A DNA stretch of 64,000 bases, taken from Alicyclobacillus contaminans DSM 17975. GTDB taxonomy: Bacteria; Bacillota; Bacilli; Alicyclobacillales; Alicyclobacillaceae. Positions 5,884-22,304 of the stretch are shown here, piece by piece; position 1 is the stretch's first letter; every line of letters starts with the position of its first letter. Position numbers and translations under genes: made by a program. The notes beneath the pieces are model-generated. The model saw nothing but the letters and a program-made list of their open reading frames with translations, did no database searches and was not told the DNA's origin. Location: assembly GCF_000429525.1 (NCBI RefSeq), contig NZ_AUCA01000007.1, positions 1-64,000 on the forward strand, given 5' to 3'.

Positions 5884-6656
5884 ACGAGTTAACCATTGGC
5901 CATCTGTTCGAGTGGAACGGGAAAACCGTGGTGATTACTGGGGCGGGCGGCAGCATCGGATCGACCCTCGCCCACGCCTTTGCTTACTATGGTGCGAATT
6001 TGGCGTTGATTGATAAAAATGCGGCATCTATGGAAAACATCTCCCGCGTTATCACCGATATGGGCCGGACCTGCCGTTCGTATGCCATCGACATCACCAA
6101 GGAGACTGACGTGAAAGAGACGATGGCCGACATTCAGCAGCAGTTCGGCTCCGTCGACATCCTGATCAATCACGCCGGCATGAACATTCGTCAGCCAGCT
6201 GTGGAGTACGACAAGGCAGACTTCGACAAAGTGCTTGGCGTCAACCTCGGAGGGATGTTCCTGATGGCCCGTGAAGCCGGCAGGTACATGATTGAACAAG
6301 GCGGCGGCAAGATCATCAACACTGCGTCGGTTTCGGCCGTTCGCGGGCATAAACGACAAGTTGCGTACGCCTCGAGCAAAGGCGGCGTGGCGCAGTTGAC
6401 AAAGGTGCTCGCGCATGAGTGGGCGCAGTACGGCGTGAACGTCAATGCCGTTGGCCCTGGCTATATCTACACCAACCAGACGAAAGATTTGCTGGCCGAT
6501 GATGTGTCGCATCAATTCATTCTCGAAAAGATCCCGATGGGGCGGATTGGTGAACCGTCCGATCTCGTTGGCGCCTACCTCTTCTTGGCTTCCCCGGCCG
6601 CCGATTACATTACCGGCCAGATATTGTTCGTCGACGGCGGCCGCCTGATTGACTAG
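5880..6656 (+). CDS. SDR family oxidoreductase
   Basis: This is a classical 258-residue short-chain dehydrogenase/reductase. TGAGGSIG (20-27) binds the nucleotide, D45 after the second strand favours NAD over NADP, NHAG lies at 97-100, and the catalytic set is S150, Y163 and K167 (YASSK). The C-terminal GQILFVDGG is typical of the family. The start overlaps the previous stop as ATGA. In this operon it probably oxidises a hydroxy-acid to the 3-oxoacid used by the CoA-transferase, like 3-hydroxybutyrate or gluconate dehydrogenases, but sequence alone does not give the substrate. Confidence 0.88.
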   Translation: MNELTIGHLFEWNGKTVVITGAGGSIGSTLAHAFAYYGANLALIDKNAASMENISRVITDMGRTCRSYAIDITKETDVKETMADIQQQFGSVDILINHAGMNIRQPAVEYDKADFDKVLGVNLGGMFLMAREAGRYMIEQGGGKIINTASVSAVRGHKRQVAYASSKGGVAQLTKVLAHEWAQYGVNVNAVGPGYIYTNQTKDLLADDVSHQFILEKIPMGRIGEPSDLVGAYLFLASPAADYITGQILFVDGGRLID

Positions 6657-8109: not shown

Positions 8110-9309
8110 ATGTCAGAGAACGTATGGCTGGTCGAATACGTTCGAACACCGATTGGCCGCGTTGGCGGGGCCTTGAAGAGCGTGCGCCCGGATGATTTGG
8201 CGGCCATCGTCATTGCGGAAGTCGTCAAGCGATCCGGGATTGACGGCGCACAGGTGGATGATGTCGTCTTCGGTTGTGCGAACCAGGCGGGGGAAGACAA
8301 TCGCAACGTGGCGCGGATGGCCGCACTGCTCGCGGGACTGCCGGAAACCGTGCCTGGGGTGACGGTCAACCGGCTGTGTGCCTCTGGGCTGGATGCGTTC
8401 AATCAGGCGGCGCGAGCGATTGCCCTCGGTGACGCCGATATCATGATTGCCGGCGGCGTGGAAAGCATGACCCGGGCACCACTTGTCCTGCAAAAGCCAG
8501 AAACCGAATTTGTACGCGGTAACCAAACGATGTGGGATACTCAACTCGGCTGGCGGATGGAGAATCCCAACTTTCCCTATCCCACGGAAGCTCTCGGCGT
8601 GACCGCAGAAAATGTTGCTGAGAAATACAACATCAGCCGGGAAGATCAGGATGCGTTTGCTCTCCGGAGCCAGCAAAAAGCGCGGAAAGCGCAGGAGAAC
8701 GGAATTTTCGCAGAGGAAATCGTGCCGGTGCTGGTCCGCGAACGTAAGCAGGAACGGTGGGTCACAGAGGACGAACATCTGCGTCCGGACACCACGCTGG
8801 AAACCCTCGCAAAATTACGGCCCGTGTTTAAAGCAGACGGCACAGTGACGGCCGGGAACTCATCCGGCATCAATGACGGCGCTGCTGCGCTGCTGCTGGT
8901 CTCGGAAAGGCGGGGCCGGGAACTCGGCCTGAAACCGCTCGCCCGCTATGTGGCCAGCACCAGCGCCGGGGTCAGTCCGTCGTTCATGGGGATTGGGCCG
9001 ATTCCCGCCACCCGCAAAGTGCTTGCCCGCACTGGACTCGCTATTGACGATATGGACTGGATTGAATTGAATGAAGCGTTTGCTTCACAATCTGTCGCAT
9101 GCATCCGTGAACTCGGGATGGATGAATCCCGCGTTAACCCACATGGTGGGGCCATCGCCCTTGGCCATCCGCTTGGTTGCTCAGGCGCCCGTTTGGTGGG
9201 AACGCTCGCCCGTCAGCTGGCGAGGACCGAAGCGCGTTACGGCCTTGTCACTTTGTGTGTGGGCGTTGGCCAAGGTGTAGCCACCATTTTGGAGCGCGTT
9301 ACGCCGTAA
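8110..9309 (+). CDS. Acetyl-CoA acyltransferase (thiolase)
   Basis: This 399-residue degradative thiolase has nucleophile C90 in [11 protein letters not shown], the [15 protein letters not shown] block with the catalytic histidine, and CVGVGQG near the C-terminus, where the second cysteine sits in a CVGVG and not the usual CIGGG context. It would cleave a 3-oxoacyl-CoA to acetyl-CoA and a shorter acyl-CoA, completing the route from the CoA-transferase. The ATG at 8110 has AAGGAG 8 bases upstream, so the in-frame GTG at 8101 is rejected. It is the last gene of the operon. 3-Oxoadipyl-CoA thiolase (PcaF) is a close alternative. Confidence 0.9.
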
Positions 9310-15067: not shown

Positions 15068-17184
<2,117 letters not shown>

Positions 17185-17238
17185 CTACTCCTTTCTGCGC
17201 CCGTAGGCCTATTTCTGACAATGTACGCGGCCGGGGCG

Positions 17239-17922
17239 TCAGGAGAGCGCGTAGCGTCCAAACCGCTTTTCCAGGTATCCCTGCGCGTACGACAGGACAG
17301 TGCTGAACAGCAGGTAAATCACGGCCGCCTCGAGGTAGGTGGCCAGTGGCGCGTAGGCCGCGGCGGTGATCTCCTGGGCCACCTGGAACAGCTCACGGAC
17401 AGTGATCACTGCGGCCAACGACGTATCTTTGACCAGGCTGATGAAAGAGTTGGCCAGCGGCGGTACAGCCACGCGTGCAGCCTGGGGCAGCACAATGAGG
17501 TACAGCACCTGGCGGTTGGTCATGCCGAGCGATTGCGCCGCTTCCCACTGTCCCTTCGGTATGGACTGAATGGCTGCGCGGATCACTTCCGAGTTGTAGG
17601 CGCCCACATTGAGCGTGAAGCCAATCACGGCCGCAGGAAATGCCGGCAGGGTGATACCGACGCCGGGCAGCCCATAAAAAATGATGAACAATTGCACGAG
17701 CAGCGGCGTGCCGCGAATGACCCACACGTAAAAGCGGGCCACCGCCACCAGTGGCGCAAGCCCGGACAAACGCGCGAGCGCAGTGAGCAGTGCCAAAATC
17801 AAACCGAACGCAAACGAGACCAGGGTGAGTGGAACGGTCCACTCCACCCCGGCTATCAGCAAAGGCAGGAAATGCACTGCCCAGTATTGCAACAGTTGCG
17901 GAAAAGTCATGCCGTCCATCAT
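17239..17922 (-). CDS. Amino acid ABC transporter permease (cystine/polar amino acid type)
   Basis: This 227-residue HisM/GlnP-family permease has about five membrane helices and the EAA loop (GQWEAAQSLGMTNRQVLYLIVLPQAARVAVPP, about 120-150) that docks on the ATPase. It sits between a binding protein and mccA/mccB, so L-cystine or a related sulfur amino acid is the likely cargo. No ATP-binding subunit gene is in the operon, so it must borrow one from elsewhere. The start is taken as the ATG at 17922, 14 bases after the binding protein gene. In-frame ATGs at 17919 and 17910 are also possible. Confidence 0.88.
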   Translation of the reverse strand: MMDGMTFPQLLQYWAVHFLPLLIAGVEWTVPLTLVSFAFGLILALLTALARLSGLAPLVAVARFYVWVIRGTPLLVQLFIIFYGLPGVGITLPAFPAAVIGFTLNVGAYNSEVIRAAIQSIPKGQWEAAQSLGMTNRQVLYLIVLPQAARVAVPPLANSFISLVKDTSLAAVITVRELFQVAQEITAAAYAPLATYLEAAVIYLLFSTVLSYAQGYLEKRFGRYALS

Positions 17923-17935
17923 GGGCTCAACATCC

Positions 17936-18763
17936 TTACTTGGACACGTCGACGCCGAAATACTTCTCAGAAATCTTCAGGTACGTTCCGTCCTTTTTCA
18001 TATCGGCGAGCGCTTTGTTCACGGCTTGGACCAGCTCCGGGTTCCCCTTGGGCATGGCGAAGCCTTCCTCGGCCGCGTTGTTCCAACTGGCCACCACTTT
18101 CAGCGGTGCATTGGGGTGGTGCTTTTTGAAGTCGAGAAACGACAGTTCATCGTTGACCGTGGCGTCAATACGTCCAGACTCAAGCAGTGAAATGGCTTCG
18201 TTGAAGCCGCTGACCGGTTGAATGTGGGCCCCGTTCTGCCGCGCGATGTCGGCCAAATTGCTGGTCAGTGACTGACCGGCCGTGTGGCCCTTGAGGTCTT
18301 TGAAGCTCTTGATGGTGTTGTTGTCACTGCGGACAATCAACACTGCCCGTGACACGATGTAGGGTGTGGAAAAGTCATACTTGGCCTTGCGCTCAGGTGT
18401 GATGGCCACTTCGTCAGCCACCATATCATACCGGTGACTGAACAGACCTTCAAGCAAACCATCCCATTGGGACTCTACGAACTTGGGCTTGACACCCAGG
18501 CGCTGCGCCACCTGTTCTGCAATTTCCACGTCAAAACCGGTCAGCTTGCCTGTGTTGTCGTGATAGTCAAATGGGGCATAGGTCCCCTCGGTACCGATGG
18601 TGATGGTGCCCTGCTGTTTAATCGTTTGATACAGGTTGCCGCTGCCAGCCGTGCTGCTGTTGGCGGAGTTGCCCTGCCCGGATGTGCCCGACGTGTTCGC
18701 TCCGCAGGCAGTCATGGCGAACATGGACAGAATCAAGCCGCTGATGACGAATGTTTTTTTCAT
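17936..18763 (-). CDS. Amino acid ABC transporter substrate-binding lipoprotein (cystine type)
   Basis: The 275-residue extracellular binding protein (SBP_bac_3 family) has a signal peptide with lipobox MTAC-G at about residue 21, a Ser/Gly/Asn-rich linker (24-45) and the ligand domain starting GTITIGTEGTYAPFDY, the typical polar amino acid-binding opening. GGGGAGAG lies 4 bases before the ATG at 18763. It is the first gene of the operon with permease, mccA and mccB, which points to cystine or another sulfur compound. Confidence 0.9.
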   Translation of the reverse strand: MKKTFVISGLILSMFAMTACGANTSGTSGQGNSANSSTAGSGNLYQTIKQQGTITIGTEGTYAPFDYHDNTGKLTGFDVEIAEQVAQRLGVKPKFVESQWDGLLEGLFSHRYDMVADEVAITPERKAKYDFSTPYIVSRAVLIVRSDNNTIKSFKDLKGHTAGQSLTSNLADIARQNGAHIQPVSGFNEAISLLESGRIDATVNDELSFLDFKKHHPNAPLKVVASWNNAAEEGFAMPKGNPELVQAVNKALADMKKDGTYLKISEKYFGVDVSK

Positions 18764-18807
18764 ATTTCTCTCCCCACTCCTATAGTAACAGACCATAAAC
18801 CCTATAT

Positions 18808-19136: not shown

Positions 19137-19808
19137 ATGGGAGAGAAAGAGAACGAGAAAGCCCGTTTCATCGACATGTTGGAGCAAGAACGCCGCCGTT
19201 TGGCGCGGGAGATTCACGATGTACCGGCTCAGTGGCTGACCACTACGGCGATGCGTTTGGAAGTGGTTCAGCGGCTGCTGGCGGCGGGGAGAGCGGACGA
19301 GGCGGCGCGGGAAGTGGGGCGACTGCGAGTCGGTCTGAAAATGGCGATAGCGGACGTGCGGCGCCTGATTTTTGACCTGCGTCCGTCCCTGCTCAAGTAC
19401 GGCATTCAGGCTGCAATTCATATGTACGCTGAGCGATTTGCCGAGGCCTTTGGCCTGAGCGTTGACGTGCGCGGCGAATGGCCGACCCACACGCTTGGGG
19501 AAGCCGAGGATGTGGCTGTGTTCCGGGTGTTTCAGGAATTGCTGAACAACGTGTACAAGCATGCCCACGCCCGGTGTGTGACGGTGACGCTGTACGCCGC
19601 AGGTGACGTGTGCGGTTTATCCATTGCAGACGACGGCCACGGCTTTCCGGCAGAGGCCCCTGCATCGTCTGAGCGAGAGGATGGACACTACGGTTGGCTC
19701 GGCATGCAGGAGCGCATGGCATTGGTGGGTGGCCGTCTGTGGCGCGTGCCGAACGTGCGGCAGGGGGCGTGTGTGGTCTGCGAAATTCCGCTGCGCCAGA
19801 AGCACTGA
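19137..19808 (+). CDS. DegS-like sensor histidine kinase, no sensor domain
   Basis: The 223-residue soluble kinase has a HisKA_3 H-box, RRRLAREIHDVPAQWLTTTA, with phospho-histidine about H27; DegS has a similar REIHDGPAQ. Its ATPase domain has ELLNNVYKHA (N box), DDGHGF (G1) and GMQERM (G2). There is no membrane segment and almost no input region, so the signal must come from partner proteins. AAGGGTGA lies 7 bases before the ATG. It is followed after 63 bases by a LuxR-type regulator whose receiver lacks the phospho-acceptor. Confidence 0.88.
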   Translation: MGEKENEKARFIDMLEQERRRLAREIHDVPAQWLTTTAMRLEVVQRLLAAGRADEAAREVGRLRVGLKMAIADVRRLIFDLRPSLLKYGIQAAIHMYAERFAEAFGLSVDVRGEWPTHTLGEAEDVAVFRVFQELLNNVYKHAHARCVTVTLYAAGDVCGLSIADDGHGFPAEAPASSEREDGHYGWLGMQERMALVGGRLWRVPNVRQGACVVCEIPLRQKH

Positions 19809-19871: not shown

Positions 19872-20540
19872 GTGGCTCGTGTGGTTCGTGTGTTTTCATG
19901 GCTATTGCCCCCCTTGTTTAATCTTGGGTTGCGTACGCTGCTCGCCACAAGAAATCCATTTGTTTACAGTGGCGCCTATCAAGAGTTGGGGCCGCTCCTT
20001 CGTGCCTTTGCGGATACAGACCGGGATGCGGACGTGCTGCTTCTGGAGTACCAGCATGCGTACACCGATTACCCGCAGCTCTTGCAGCGCCTGCGGGCGC
20101 ACAATCCGATGCTGCGCGTTCTGTTTATCCTGCCTAACACGTTTGACGAGGAAGTGTTGCGCAGCGCTCTGAGGTCCGGGGGAGACGGGTACTTGCTGCA
20201 ATGTGTCGAGGAATCCGTATTGCTCGACGCGCTGGACAACGTGGTTCGCGGCGACGGATACCTGGATTCGCAGATGACCCCGGCGGTGCTCGAGGAACTT
20301 CGCAAACCGCTGCATGCGATGCAGGCGCTGGATGTTCAGGTGCCGCTGACGGAACGGGAACGCATGTTGGTGCAATTGGCTGCGGACGGGTTGAGCAATG
20401 GACAGATTAGTCAAGTGATGGGTTTGGCGGAAAAAACAGTTCGCAACGTGTGGTCGTCTCTGTTTGATAAAGTCGGTTACAACGACCGCACACAGACTGT
20501 GCTGTGGGCGATTCGAACGGGACAGGCGGAGTTGCGATAA
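19872..20540 (+). CDS. LuxR/NarL-type regulator with degenerate receiver domain
   Basis: This 222-residue protein has a receiver-like N-terminal domain (about 5-125) and a LuxR helix-turn-helix (about 158-218, LTERERMLVQLAADGLSNGQ...). Aligned by eye with NarL/DegU receivers, the paired acidic residues near the start are replaced (FSWLLPP), the phospho-acceptor aspartate is glutamate (E59 in LLLEYQ), and the conserved lysine is glutamine (Q110 in GYLLQ). It is therefore probably not phosphorylated in the normal way. The GTG start at 19872 follows GGAGGAGGA. It is likely co-expressed with the upstream kinase; targets are unknown. Confidence 0.85.
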   Translation: MARVVRVFSWLLPPLFNLGLRTLLATRNPFVYSGAYQELGPLLRAFADTDRDADVLLLEYQHAYTDYPQLLQRLRAHNPMLRVLFILPNTFDEEVLRSALRSGGDGYLLQCVEESVLLDALDNVVRGDGYLDSQMTPAVLEELRKPLHAMQALDVQVPLTERERMLVQLAADGLSNGQISQVMGLAEKTVRNVWSSLFDKVGYNDRTQTVLWAIRTGQAELR

Positions 20541-20550
20541 AGTGTCGATG

Positions 20551-20590
20551 GAGCGGTGCGGTCATGGCGAGGCTGCACCGTTCTTGATTT
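20551..20590 (+). terminator. Probable terminator after the regulator gene
   Basis: GAGCGGTGCGG and CTGCACCGTTC form an 11-bp stem with two G-U pairs, followed by TTGATTTTG. The gap up to ftsE also contains TTTGCA-N5-TGCAAA (20660-20676), a possible operator. Confidence 0.5.
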
Positions 20591-20731
20591 TGTCAACAGG
20601 ATTTTGGCATTTCGTGTCGAAACGTCACGAGGGCAGGTTGATAGGAGCTTGGGATGCGGTTTGCATGCTTTGCAAAACCTGTGGGCTGACCAATAAGGGT
20701 ATGAGCGATACCACGTATGGGGAGTGCTTTT

Positions 20732-21418
20732 ATGATTGAAATGCAAGACGTTTGGAAGCAGTACCCAAACGGGGCGCGGGCACTGAACGGCGTCAGCGTG
20801 CACATCACGAAGGGCGAGTTTGTGTACGTGGTGGGGCCGAGCGGGGCAGGCAAATCGACGTTTATCAAATTGATGTATCGGGAAGAGCGGCCGACCAAAG
20901 GACACATCTTTGTGAACGGCTTTAATATTGATCGGTTGAAGGACCGGAAAGTGCCGCTTTTGCGCCGCAGCATCGGCGTGGTGTTTCAGGATTTCAAGCT
21001 GCTGCCGCGCCTGACCGCGTATGAGAACGTGGCGTTTGCGCTGGAGGTCATCGGGACGTCGAAACGACAGATCAAGCGTCGCGTGGCGGATGCGCTGAAC
21101 TGGGTCGGATTGAGCGACAAGGCGGACATGCTTCCGTCACAGTTGTCGGGGGGCGAGCAGCAGCGCGTGGCGGTGGCGCGGGCGTTGGTCAACAATCCGG
21201 CGGTCATCATCGCAGATGAGCCCACGGGCAATCTGGATCCGGAAACGTCGTGGGACGTGATGAAACTGTTTCAGCGGATCAATGATCGGGGCACGACCAT
21301 TGTGATGGCCACACACAACAAAGATATCGTCAACACCATGCGCAAGCGGGTGATTGCGATTGAGGGCGGTCAAATTGTGAGAGACGAACAAAAAGGGATG
21401 TACGGATATGAAGATTAG
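20732..21418 (+). CDS. ftsE: Cell division ATP-binding protein FtsE
   Basis: The 228-residue ABC ATPase has Walker A GPSGAGKST (35-43), signature LSGGEQQR, Walker B VIIADEPTGNLDP and the H-loop THN. FYI-type FtsE markers include the coupling to an FtsX gene that overlaps by 11 bases. FtsEX is an ABC-like complex that does not transport but activates cell-wall hydrolases across the membrane; in Bacillus it drives CwlO. The ATG at 20732 follows GGGGAG at good spacing. Confidence 0.95.
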   Translation: MIEMQDVWKQYPNGARALNGVSVHITKGEFVYVVGPSGAGKSTFIKLMYREERPTKGHIFVNGFNIDRLKDRKVPLLRRSIGVVFQDFKLLPRLTAYENVAFALEVIGTSKRQIKRRVADALNWVGLSDKADMLPSQLSGGEQQRVAVARALVNNPAVIIADEPTGNLDPETSWDVMKLFQRINDRGTTIVMATHNKDIVNTMRKRVIAIEGGQIVRDEQKGMYGYED

Positions 21419-22304
21419 TATGCTGGGACGCCACATTCGCGAAGGCTGCAAGAACCTGCTTCGAAACAGTTGGATGAGCATCGCGTCGGTGGGCGCGGTC
21501 GCCATCACGCTGCTCATTCTCGGCGTGACCCTGGTGATTGCGCTCAATGCGCAGCAATTGTCCAACTACATGGCTGGACAGCTGCAGGTCAACGCATTTC
21601 TGAAGCAGAACGTGACGAAACAGCAGGCATTGGCGCTGGATGCCGAAATCAAAGCGCTGCCCGGGGTCCAGGAGGCGATCTATGTTCCGAAGGATCAGGG
21701 ATTCAAGGAATTGCAGCAGAGCCTGGGGAAGGAGTACCAGGAAGTGTTGCAAGGGTTCTCCAAAAACAATCCCATTCCCGATAAGATTGTCGTGAAAGCG
21801 AAAGATCCCAAACAGACGTTGGGCATTGCCGCAGAAATTCGGCAAATGGACGGTGTCGACAAGGTCGACGATGGAAAGCAGGTCGTGGACAAGCTGTTCC
21901 GGTTTCTGGACATGGTTCGGAACATCGGCGTGGTGTTTGTGGTCGGTCTGGTGGTGATGGCGATGTTTCTCATCTCCAACACCATTAAAATCACCATTTT
22001 TTCGCGTCGCCGGGAAATTGAGATCATGAAATTGGTGGGGGCGACCGATTGGTTCATTCGTTGGCCGTTCCTGACGGAAGGGATCATCATTGGGGTGGTT
22101 GGTGCCCTCGTGCCCTTTGCGCTCATCGTGTACGGTTATCACAGCGCCTTCGTGCGCATGGGCGGTACGTTTCTCGCCGTCGCGTTTCCGCTCATTCCAA
22201 CGGGGGCGTTGGCGCAAAAATTGGCGCTGGTCATGTTTGGACTGGGAATTTTCATCGGCATCTGGGGCGGTATCATGTCCGTTCGCAGATTTCTTCGCGT
22301 GTAG
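21408..22304 (+). CDS. ftsX: Cell division protein FtsX
   Basis: The 298-residue membrane protein has the FtsX layout: a short cytoplasmic N-terminus, TM1 (about 22-42), an extracellular domain (about 50-165) and three more TM helices (about 170-290). RNSWMSIASVGAVAITLLILG is the conserved TM1 entry, and SRRREIEIMKLVGATDWFIRWPFL is the coupling-helix region. It overlaps ftsE by 11 bases, as partner genes do. The extracellular loop would contact a peptidoglycan hydrolase, possibly including the M23 protein at 36705, although that is speculative. Confidence 0.95.
   Translation: MKISMLGRHIREGCKNLLRNSWMSIASVGAVAITLLILGVTLVIALNAQQLSNYMAGQLQVNAFLKQNVTKQQALALDAEIKALPGVQEAIYVPKDQGFKELQQSLGKEYQEVLQGFSKNNPIPDKIVVKAKDPKQTLGIAAEIRQMDGVDKVDDGKQVVDKLFRFLDMVRNIGVVFVVGLVVMAMFLISNTIKITIFSRRREIEIMKLVGATDWFIRWPFLTEGIIIGVVGALVPFALIVYGYHSAFVRMGGTFLAVAFPLIPTGALAQKLALVMFGLGIFIGIWGGIMSVRRFLRV

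Follow-up and report, generated by a model that had tools for sequence, protein, structure and literature searches.

A LuxR/NarL-type regulator with a pseudo-receiver beside a sensor-less histidine kinase in Alicyclobacillus contaminans

Contig NZ_AUCA01000007.1 of Alicyclobacillus contaminans DSM 17975, of which the first 64,000 nucleotides were analyzed (the window), encodes a LuxR/NarL-type regulator of 222 amino acids (aa) on the plus strand (19872..20540). The protein combines a pseudo-receiver at approximately residues 4-128 with a DegU-like LuxR helix-turn-helix (HTH) domain at approximately residues 156-222. We consider it probable that this is an atypical, phosphorylation-independent regulator of the NarL/LuxR type whose receiver has a structural or protein-binding role, and that the histidine kinase encoded just upstream is most likely not its phosphodonor. 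The active site of the receiver is lost across the whole ortholog clade, its predicted fold is retained and it is under purifying selection in relatives. Linkage to the kinase is loose, and the pair that the kinase forms with a tetratricopeptide repeat (TPR) protein in some relatives appears to have kin elsewhere in the genome.

All five active-site positions are replaced in the window regulator: the acidic pair by L11-L12, the phospho-accepting Asp by E59, the Thr/Ser by P88 and the Lys by Q110. Y107, three residues before the Lys position, is retained. A first-pass annotation made from the sequence alone had proposed a pseudo-receiver from the replaced acidic pair, E59 and Q110, and an alignment with 23 controls confirms both the proposal and its numbering; the loss of Thr/Ser at P88, which it did not mention, adds to the replaced residues. 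At the Thr position the beta4 loop has one extra residue, making the register of that column less sure, and either register (L87 or P88) places neither Thr nor Ser there. The complete phosphorylation site of canonical NarL/DegU-type regulators is absent from this protein.

The alignment comprised 20 orthologs, the window copy included, and, as controls, 24 further regulators of the NarL type from these genomes and related ones. The controls were not sampled at random but were the best search matches. L029 and L108 are one gene, and 23 were scored, leaving out L107, which was in the wrong frame. Among the orthologs, the first position of the acidic pair (DD1) is acidic in none and the second (DD2) in one (G014). 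The Asp column holds Asp in 17, Glu only in the window copy and Gly in two (G006, G014), and the Thr position is occupied by 16 Pro, two His, one Tyr and one Val. At the Lys column there are ten Gln, five His, two Tyr, two Arg and one Glu, and three positions before it 19 Tyr and one Phe. In contrast, the acidic pair, Asp and Lys are present in 23/23 scored controls and Thr/Ser stands in its column in 22, the remaining control (L007) having its Thr displaced by one column. The active-site loss is beyond chance, being common to the ortholog clade and unlike the controls.

By established chemistry (Bourret et al. 2025, PMC12632262), catalysis of phosphotransfer by receivers depends on the acidic pair, Thr and Lys, and because these are absent the receiver should not catalyze the reaction. 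The domain would be unable to join Mg2+-dependent aspartyl phosphotransfer and would serve as a structural or protein-binding domain. The suggestion in the first-pass annotation that E59 might mimic a permanent phosphate, locking the regulator on, fares poorly. Glu at the phospho-site can mimic phosphate in many regulators and, according to the excerpted text of Bourret et al. 2025 (PMC12632262), takes the place of Asp in Asp-less receivers more often than any other residue. However, among the orthologs Glu is unique to the window copy, 17 others having Asp, and the Thr and Lys through which a mimic would act are absent in 20/20. On these grounds we rejected the phosphomimic, to which we give hardly any credence.

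The open reading frame was judged real from its GTG start and a GGGAGGAGG stretch immediately 5'. Its DNA-binding part (20337..20537, plus strand) looks intact, as had been supposed: Pfam GerE covers residues 158-213 (expectation value (E) 1.1e-11, 44.5 bits versus a cut-off of 23.5), and the HTH is present in the predicted structure. The C-terminal LuxR-type HTH of canonical NarL/DegU-type regulators is thus in place. Pfam Response_reg scores well under its cut-off (14.8 versus 30.2 bits), and among the NCBIfam matches listed none reaches its cut-off, the best being NarL at 69.4 versus 250. The pseudo-receiver (19872..20255, plus strand) is supported by the alignment with the scored controls and by an AlphaFold2 model, which predicts an intact (beta-alpha)5 receiver followed by the HTH with a mean predicted local distance difference test (pLDDT) score of 88.4. 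The receiver fold that defines a pseudo-receiver, or atypical response regulator, is therefore found in the model. Its best structural matches are the NarL-family regulators LiaR, VraR and RcsB, among them the receivers of RcsB (Z 15.2) and VraR (Z 14.6), and the HTH aligns with that of Listeria DegU at Z 12.9, with a root-mean-square deviation of 1.2 over 68 residues and 43% identity. Across the 20 orthologs, mean pairwise identity is 0.67 in the HTH and 0.30 in the receiver.

The LuxR-type regulator VpsT (PDB 3kln/3klo) is another structural match to the model. VpsT-type control by cyclic di-GMP was considered and rejected, as the cyclic di-GMP motif of that type, W[FLM][TS]R, occurs in 0/20 orthologs.

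A profile built from 16 members was searched in 41 genomes of the window's family (Alicyclobacillaceae), the window genome included, and identified regulator orthologs in 20 of them, scoring 230-339 bits against 125.5 for the next best match. The 20 form a single clade against the 23 control rows in a tree (100/100). A scan of contigs found 37 loci, 13 of which are clear orthologs at 38-51% identity, including those of A. macrosporangiidus, A. tolerans, A. mengziensis, A. kakegawensis, A. ferrooxydans, A. shizuokensis and A. herbarius; the receivers of eight inspected among the 24 further loci look canonical by eye. The first-pass annotation had held that intact receivers in close relatives would make this copy a decay product, and none of the 20 orthologs has one.

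Eight pairs of relatives, drawn from five groups of close kin, were used to estimate selection by a simple counting method; the synonymous rate (dS) exceeds 1 in several of the pairs. The ratio of nonsynonymous to synonymous rates (dN/dS) spans 0.041-0.199 in the receiver and 0-0.098 in the HTH, where one value is undefined owing to saturated dS. Because the receiver values are low, we conclude that the receiver is a working part in these relatives, under purifying selection, and it probably is one in the window copy too. A decaying copy whose function was lost once the kinase became redundant would fit the divergence of the receiver, the absence of a regulator ortholog from G001, the one other congeneric genome searched, and the absence of the TPR gene at the window locus. 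Yet the frame is open, the HTH is well preserved, DD1, Thr/Ser and Lys are lost in 20/20 and receiver dN/dS is low in relatives. We rejected decay on the last two counts and regard it as very unlikely.

The neighboring gene, 63 bases 5' of the regulator (19137..19808, plus strand), encodes a sensor-less HisKA_3 histidine kinase of 223 aa with HisKA_3 and HATPase domains. The combination of HisKA_3 and HATPase with an HDxxxQ motif is that of DegS-type kinases. Their N-terminal sensing part is missing, and there is no room for a sensor domain: even with the upstream frame included, only 37 residues precede the H-box. The kinase motifs had been called intact, which holds for the core (H27, D28, Q32, the N-box N137/N138 and the G1 residues D165-G167-G169) but not throughout. 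Residues of the G2 region are altered, and in an alignment of seven kinases only the window kinase has V after HD (G in the other six), W in the GLxGM stretch (L in five, Y in G001) and RQGA where the other six read GxGT. Its end branch (1.02) is also the longest of the seven, the others measuring 0.12-0.67.

Kinase orthologs were searched at E <= 1e-52 in 61 genomes, with four family genomes that have no regulator (G061-G064) outside that search. They occur in seven (window, G001, G004, G010, G016, G019 and G025), and the next match is at 5.9e-36. The kinase is therefore present in six of the 20 regulator genomes and absent from 14. Wherever both genes occur (6/6) they lie in one gene row on the same strand, with a TPR gene between them in four of the six. 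Kinase, TPR gene and regulator are thus found together in four genomes, kinase and regulator in two, kinase and TPR gene in one and the regulator alone in 14. The genome with only kinase and TPR gene is G001, where the order is kinase-TPR-ftsE-ftsX. Because six of 20 regulator genomes have the kinase and G001 has the kinase but no regulator, neither gene strictly depends on the other. The kinase is at most an optional input to the regulator, since its ortholog is absent from 14/20.

The first-pass annotation had supposed that the kinase either signals to another regulator or controls this one by binding, which is incomplete: it presumes a pair, yet the kinase accompanies the regulator in 6/20 only. 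Control by binding is itself rather unlikely. The kinase, together with the TPR protein where there is one, would hold the regulator under control by contact and transfer no phosphate to it, and its phosphorylation or nucleotide state would be the switch. The single row and strand, the consecutive order of kinase, TPR gene and regulator in four genomes, and the retained H, HDxxxQ, N and G1 residues are consistent with such an arrangement. The 14 regulator genomes without a kinase ortholog at the threshold used, the kinase and TPR gene without a regulator in G001, and the odd G2-region residues and long branch of the window kinase argue against it.

In a tree, the seven regulator-locus kinases group together (87/92), apart from two DegS-like kinases and from 20 further kinases of the family and order, most of which have no sensor. 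A TPR gene lies 3' of the kinase in five of the seven genomes (G001, G010, G016, G019, G025); there is none in the 63 bases between window kinase and regulator. The G001 locus (L113:7525-9694) mirrors the window, with kinase and TPR gene in the one and kinase and regulator without TPR gene in the other. Outside this locus, a profile of the five TPR proteins matches four further TPR proteins at E 4e-37 to 1e-25, near full-length in G028 and G015 and partially in G000 and G021, and HD_5 is present in all four. Pfam found no HD_5 in the four regulator-locus TPR proteins tested. In the four that were aligned (L050:6086-7528, L049:6001-7464, L039:914-2395 and L113:7525-8991), the C-terminal half aligns with HD-GYP but is without the HHE triad of the TPR-HD_5 relatives, and the proteins of G010 and G001 have a DGT-like stretch near the lost triad. 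Judged from these alignments, the C-terminal half is a probable dead (pseudo) HD-GYP domain. The TPR-HD_5 relatives are presumably without the first HD motif and so may be altered too. The predicted structure of a TPR protein had a mean pLDDT of 63.9, with the C-terminal half poor, and was not used.

The only match to the TPR profile in the window genome is a TPR-HD_5 protein on contig C45, where a second sensor-less kinase is also encoded (L170:3534-4214). This region (L170:3534-8125) runs from the kinase through TPR-HD_5 and a FapA-type protein to a stand-alone receiver, and is preceded by a gene that we take to resemble prfB. The kinase/TPR-HD_5 pair is adjacent in L171 (G021) too, and the arrangement may be a recurring signaling module. 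The kinase/TPR pair at the regulator locus appears akin, by sequence, to this common pair of sensor-less kinase and TPR-HD-GYP protein, and likely arose by its duplication. Kinase, dead-HD-GYP TPR protein and pseudo-receiver regulator could also constitute one module, in which kinase and TPR protein hold and release the regulator without phosphotransfer. Both output-side proteins would then have turned into binding proteins, and individual lineages would later have lost parts of the module, one or two out of three. We consider such a module quite unlikely.

Downstream of the regulator, the window encodes ftsE (20717..21418, plus strand) and ftsX (21408..22304, plus strand). FtsX is supported by FtsX_ECD and FtsX matches and synteny, and FtsE by an ABC_tran match and synteny, its name resting on the position before the FtsX-domain protein. 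A terminator-like hairpin (20550..20584, plus strand) of 14 pairs followed by TGATTTTGTC lies between regulator and ftsE; a terminator consensus scan gave four sites versus 2.1 +/- 1.4 in shuffles, which is suggestive only. The genes ftsEX directly follow the regulator in the window and six relatives (G002, G004, G017, G018, G019, G025), and a Tad pilus operon lies 3' of it in another six (G003, G006, G009, G016, G022, G024). Four relatives (G008, G011, G028, G021) have a CpaE-like protein, or the receiver part of one, followed by ftsE. In G027 the start of CpaE stands 3' of the regulator at the contig end, the G014 contig ends just past the regulator, and G010 has no match within 1.2 kb 3' of it. 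Since Tad pilus genes or ftsEX recur next to the regulator, cell-surface genes are the first target candidates. CpaF was found at E <= 1e-60 in 10/20 regulator genomes versus 1/21 others (Fisher p 0.0014, uncorrected for relatedness). The Tad pilus as the sole target was rejected, as CpaF was not found in the window genome and nine other regulator genomes. The CpaF of G027 (L152, contig C38), one of these ten regulator genomes with CpaF, is 100% identical to that of G024, a member of another genus, and may be misbinned.

A stand-alone CpaE receiver stands beside the regulator at three loci where the rest of the Tad operon is not present (L037:8246-8677, L038 at ~8420-8773 and L044 at ~6158-6619 on the minus strand). 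The first is 143 aa long and its active site is intact by eye. Such receivers bear on the idea that the regulator works as a heterodimer whose other subunit, either a canonical regulator of the NarL type or a receiver standing alone, would carry any phosphorylation. The window genome has other NarL-type regulators, a CpaE-like protein or receiver part lies between regulator and ftsE in the four genomes named above, and the copy in G011 has an active site that is intact by eye. WhiI and BldM are regulators of the NarL/FixJ type. In the excerpted text of Bourret et al. 2025 (PMC12632262), WhiI of Streptomyces is an atypical regulator that forms a heterodimer with BldM; this is a precedent for the heterodimer only, as BldM also acts without phosphorylation. 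Against the idea, no partner matching the distribution of the clade was found, although no systematic search for one was made, and we think a heterodimer of this kind fairly unlikely.

Upstream of the regulator, the 19 relatives carry SPFH in 18 cases, NfeD too in 17 and DUF192 in eight; the G010 contig begins too late to show the SPFH/NfeD side. In the window, minus-strand genes at 15068-18796 encode a solute-binding protein, an ATP-binding cassette (ABC) permease, a pyridoxal phosphate-dependent enzyme and a Cys/Met metabolism enzyme, and these are divergent from the kinase gene where most relatives carry NfeD/SPFH. The window also holds a 5S ribosomal RNA gene at 31-147 (Rfam RF00001, 92 bits), and no transfer RNA genes were found in it.

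We conclude that the regulator very probably works by a way other than phosphate switching, like some pseudo-receiver regulators already known. Most likely it would bind DNA as a dimer without phosphorylation, and its control would likeliest come through its own level or a protein partner. The neighboring kinase, part of a sensor-less kinase/TPR pair that stands beside the regulator in some lineages, would most likely not phosphorylate it. Several points weigh against this reading. With Asp kept in 17/20 orthologs, unusual phosphorylation or a structural role for that residue is conceivable, and the conserved kinase core (HDxxxQ and ATP site) fits, with the shared row in 6/6 genomes, a functional tie. 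The distribution was drawn from one genome per species, some of them incomplete (G014 62%, G027 72%, G017 82%, G010 85%). The dN/dS pairs are relatives without the window copy, whose nearest ortholog is 52% identical and too distant. Finally, 21 upstream stretches (three of the window and one from each of 18 other genomes, several starts being approximate) were searched for 8-mers and for exact inverted repeats of 5 bases, and no shared motif emerged, a weak negative. Inverted repeats recurred in at most two genomes each (20 shuffles gave one, twice two) and 8-mers in at most four (ten shuffles gave three, once four), the shuffles preserving only local composition.

DegS/DegU consists of a HisKA_3 kinase and a LuxR-type regulator. 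The window pair shares this make-up and an HTH close to that of Listeria DegU, whereas its receiver has no phosphorylation site and its kinase no N-terminal sensor part. In the excerpted text of Bourret et al. 2025 (PMC12632262), ~6% of the bacterial receivers in a representative set are pseudo-receivers. The same text describes 20 atypical regulators, of which 18 are orphans and two, CmrT and FrzS, are not. The window regulator resembles them in having a receiver fold without the conserved active site and a DNA-binding output; here, however, Asp is mostly kept and it is its partner residues that have disappeared. CmrT of CmrRST is likewise a pseudo-receiver regulator encoded beside a kinase, but it is OmpR-type and CmrRST includes a canonical regulator, which the window operon does not show (PMC12632262). 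The window copy, with E59, is an aspartate-less receiver and resembles RitR as described in the excerpt of Maule et al. 2015 (PMC4395418) in lacking Asp and other pocket residues. RitR differs in being OmpR/PhoB-type, and the term aspartate-less applies to the window copy but not to its clade, in which most members have Asp. By analogy with GlnR and RamR, in which dimer formation is a reported role of Asp (excerpt of Bourret et al. 2025, PMC12632262), the residue may serve dimer formation in the relatives that retain it.

By the definition in the same excerpt (PMC12632262), the protein is a pseudo-receiver regulator, and its orthologs are a new clade of a known kind, set apart by the patchwork of kinase, TPR pseudo-HD-GYP protein and regulator across relatives. 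None of the papers listed by literature searches treats this regulator in its title or the opening of its abstract. An Asp that persists in 17/20 orthologs without its partner residues raises the question of a non-catalytic role. For the study of how pseudo-receivers are switched, the clade offers a natural comparison: the same regulator with and without an adjoining kinase, plus the kinase without the regulator, in related species. The kinase appears to be present in A. herbarius and A. kakegawensis and absent in A. macrosporangiidus and A. ferrooxydans.
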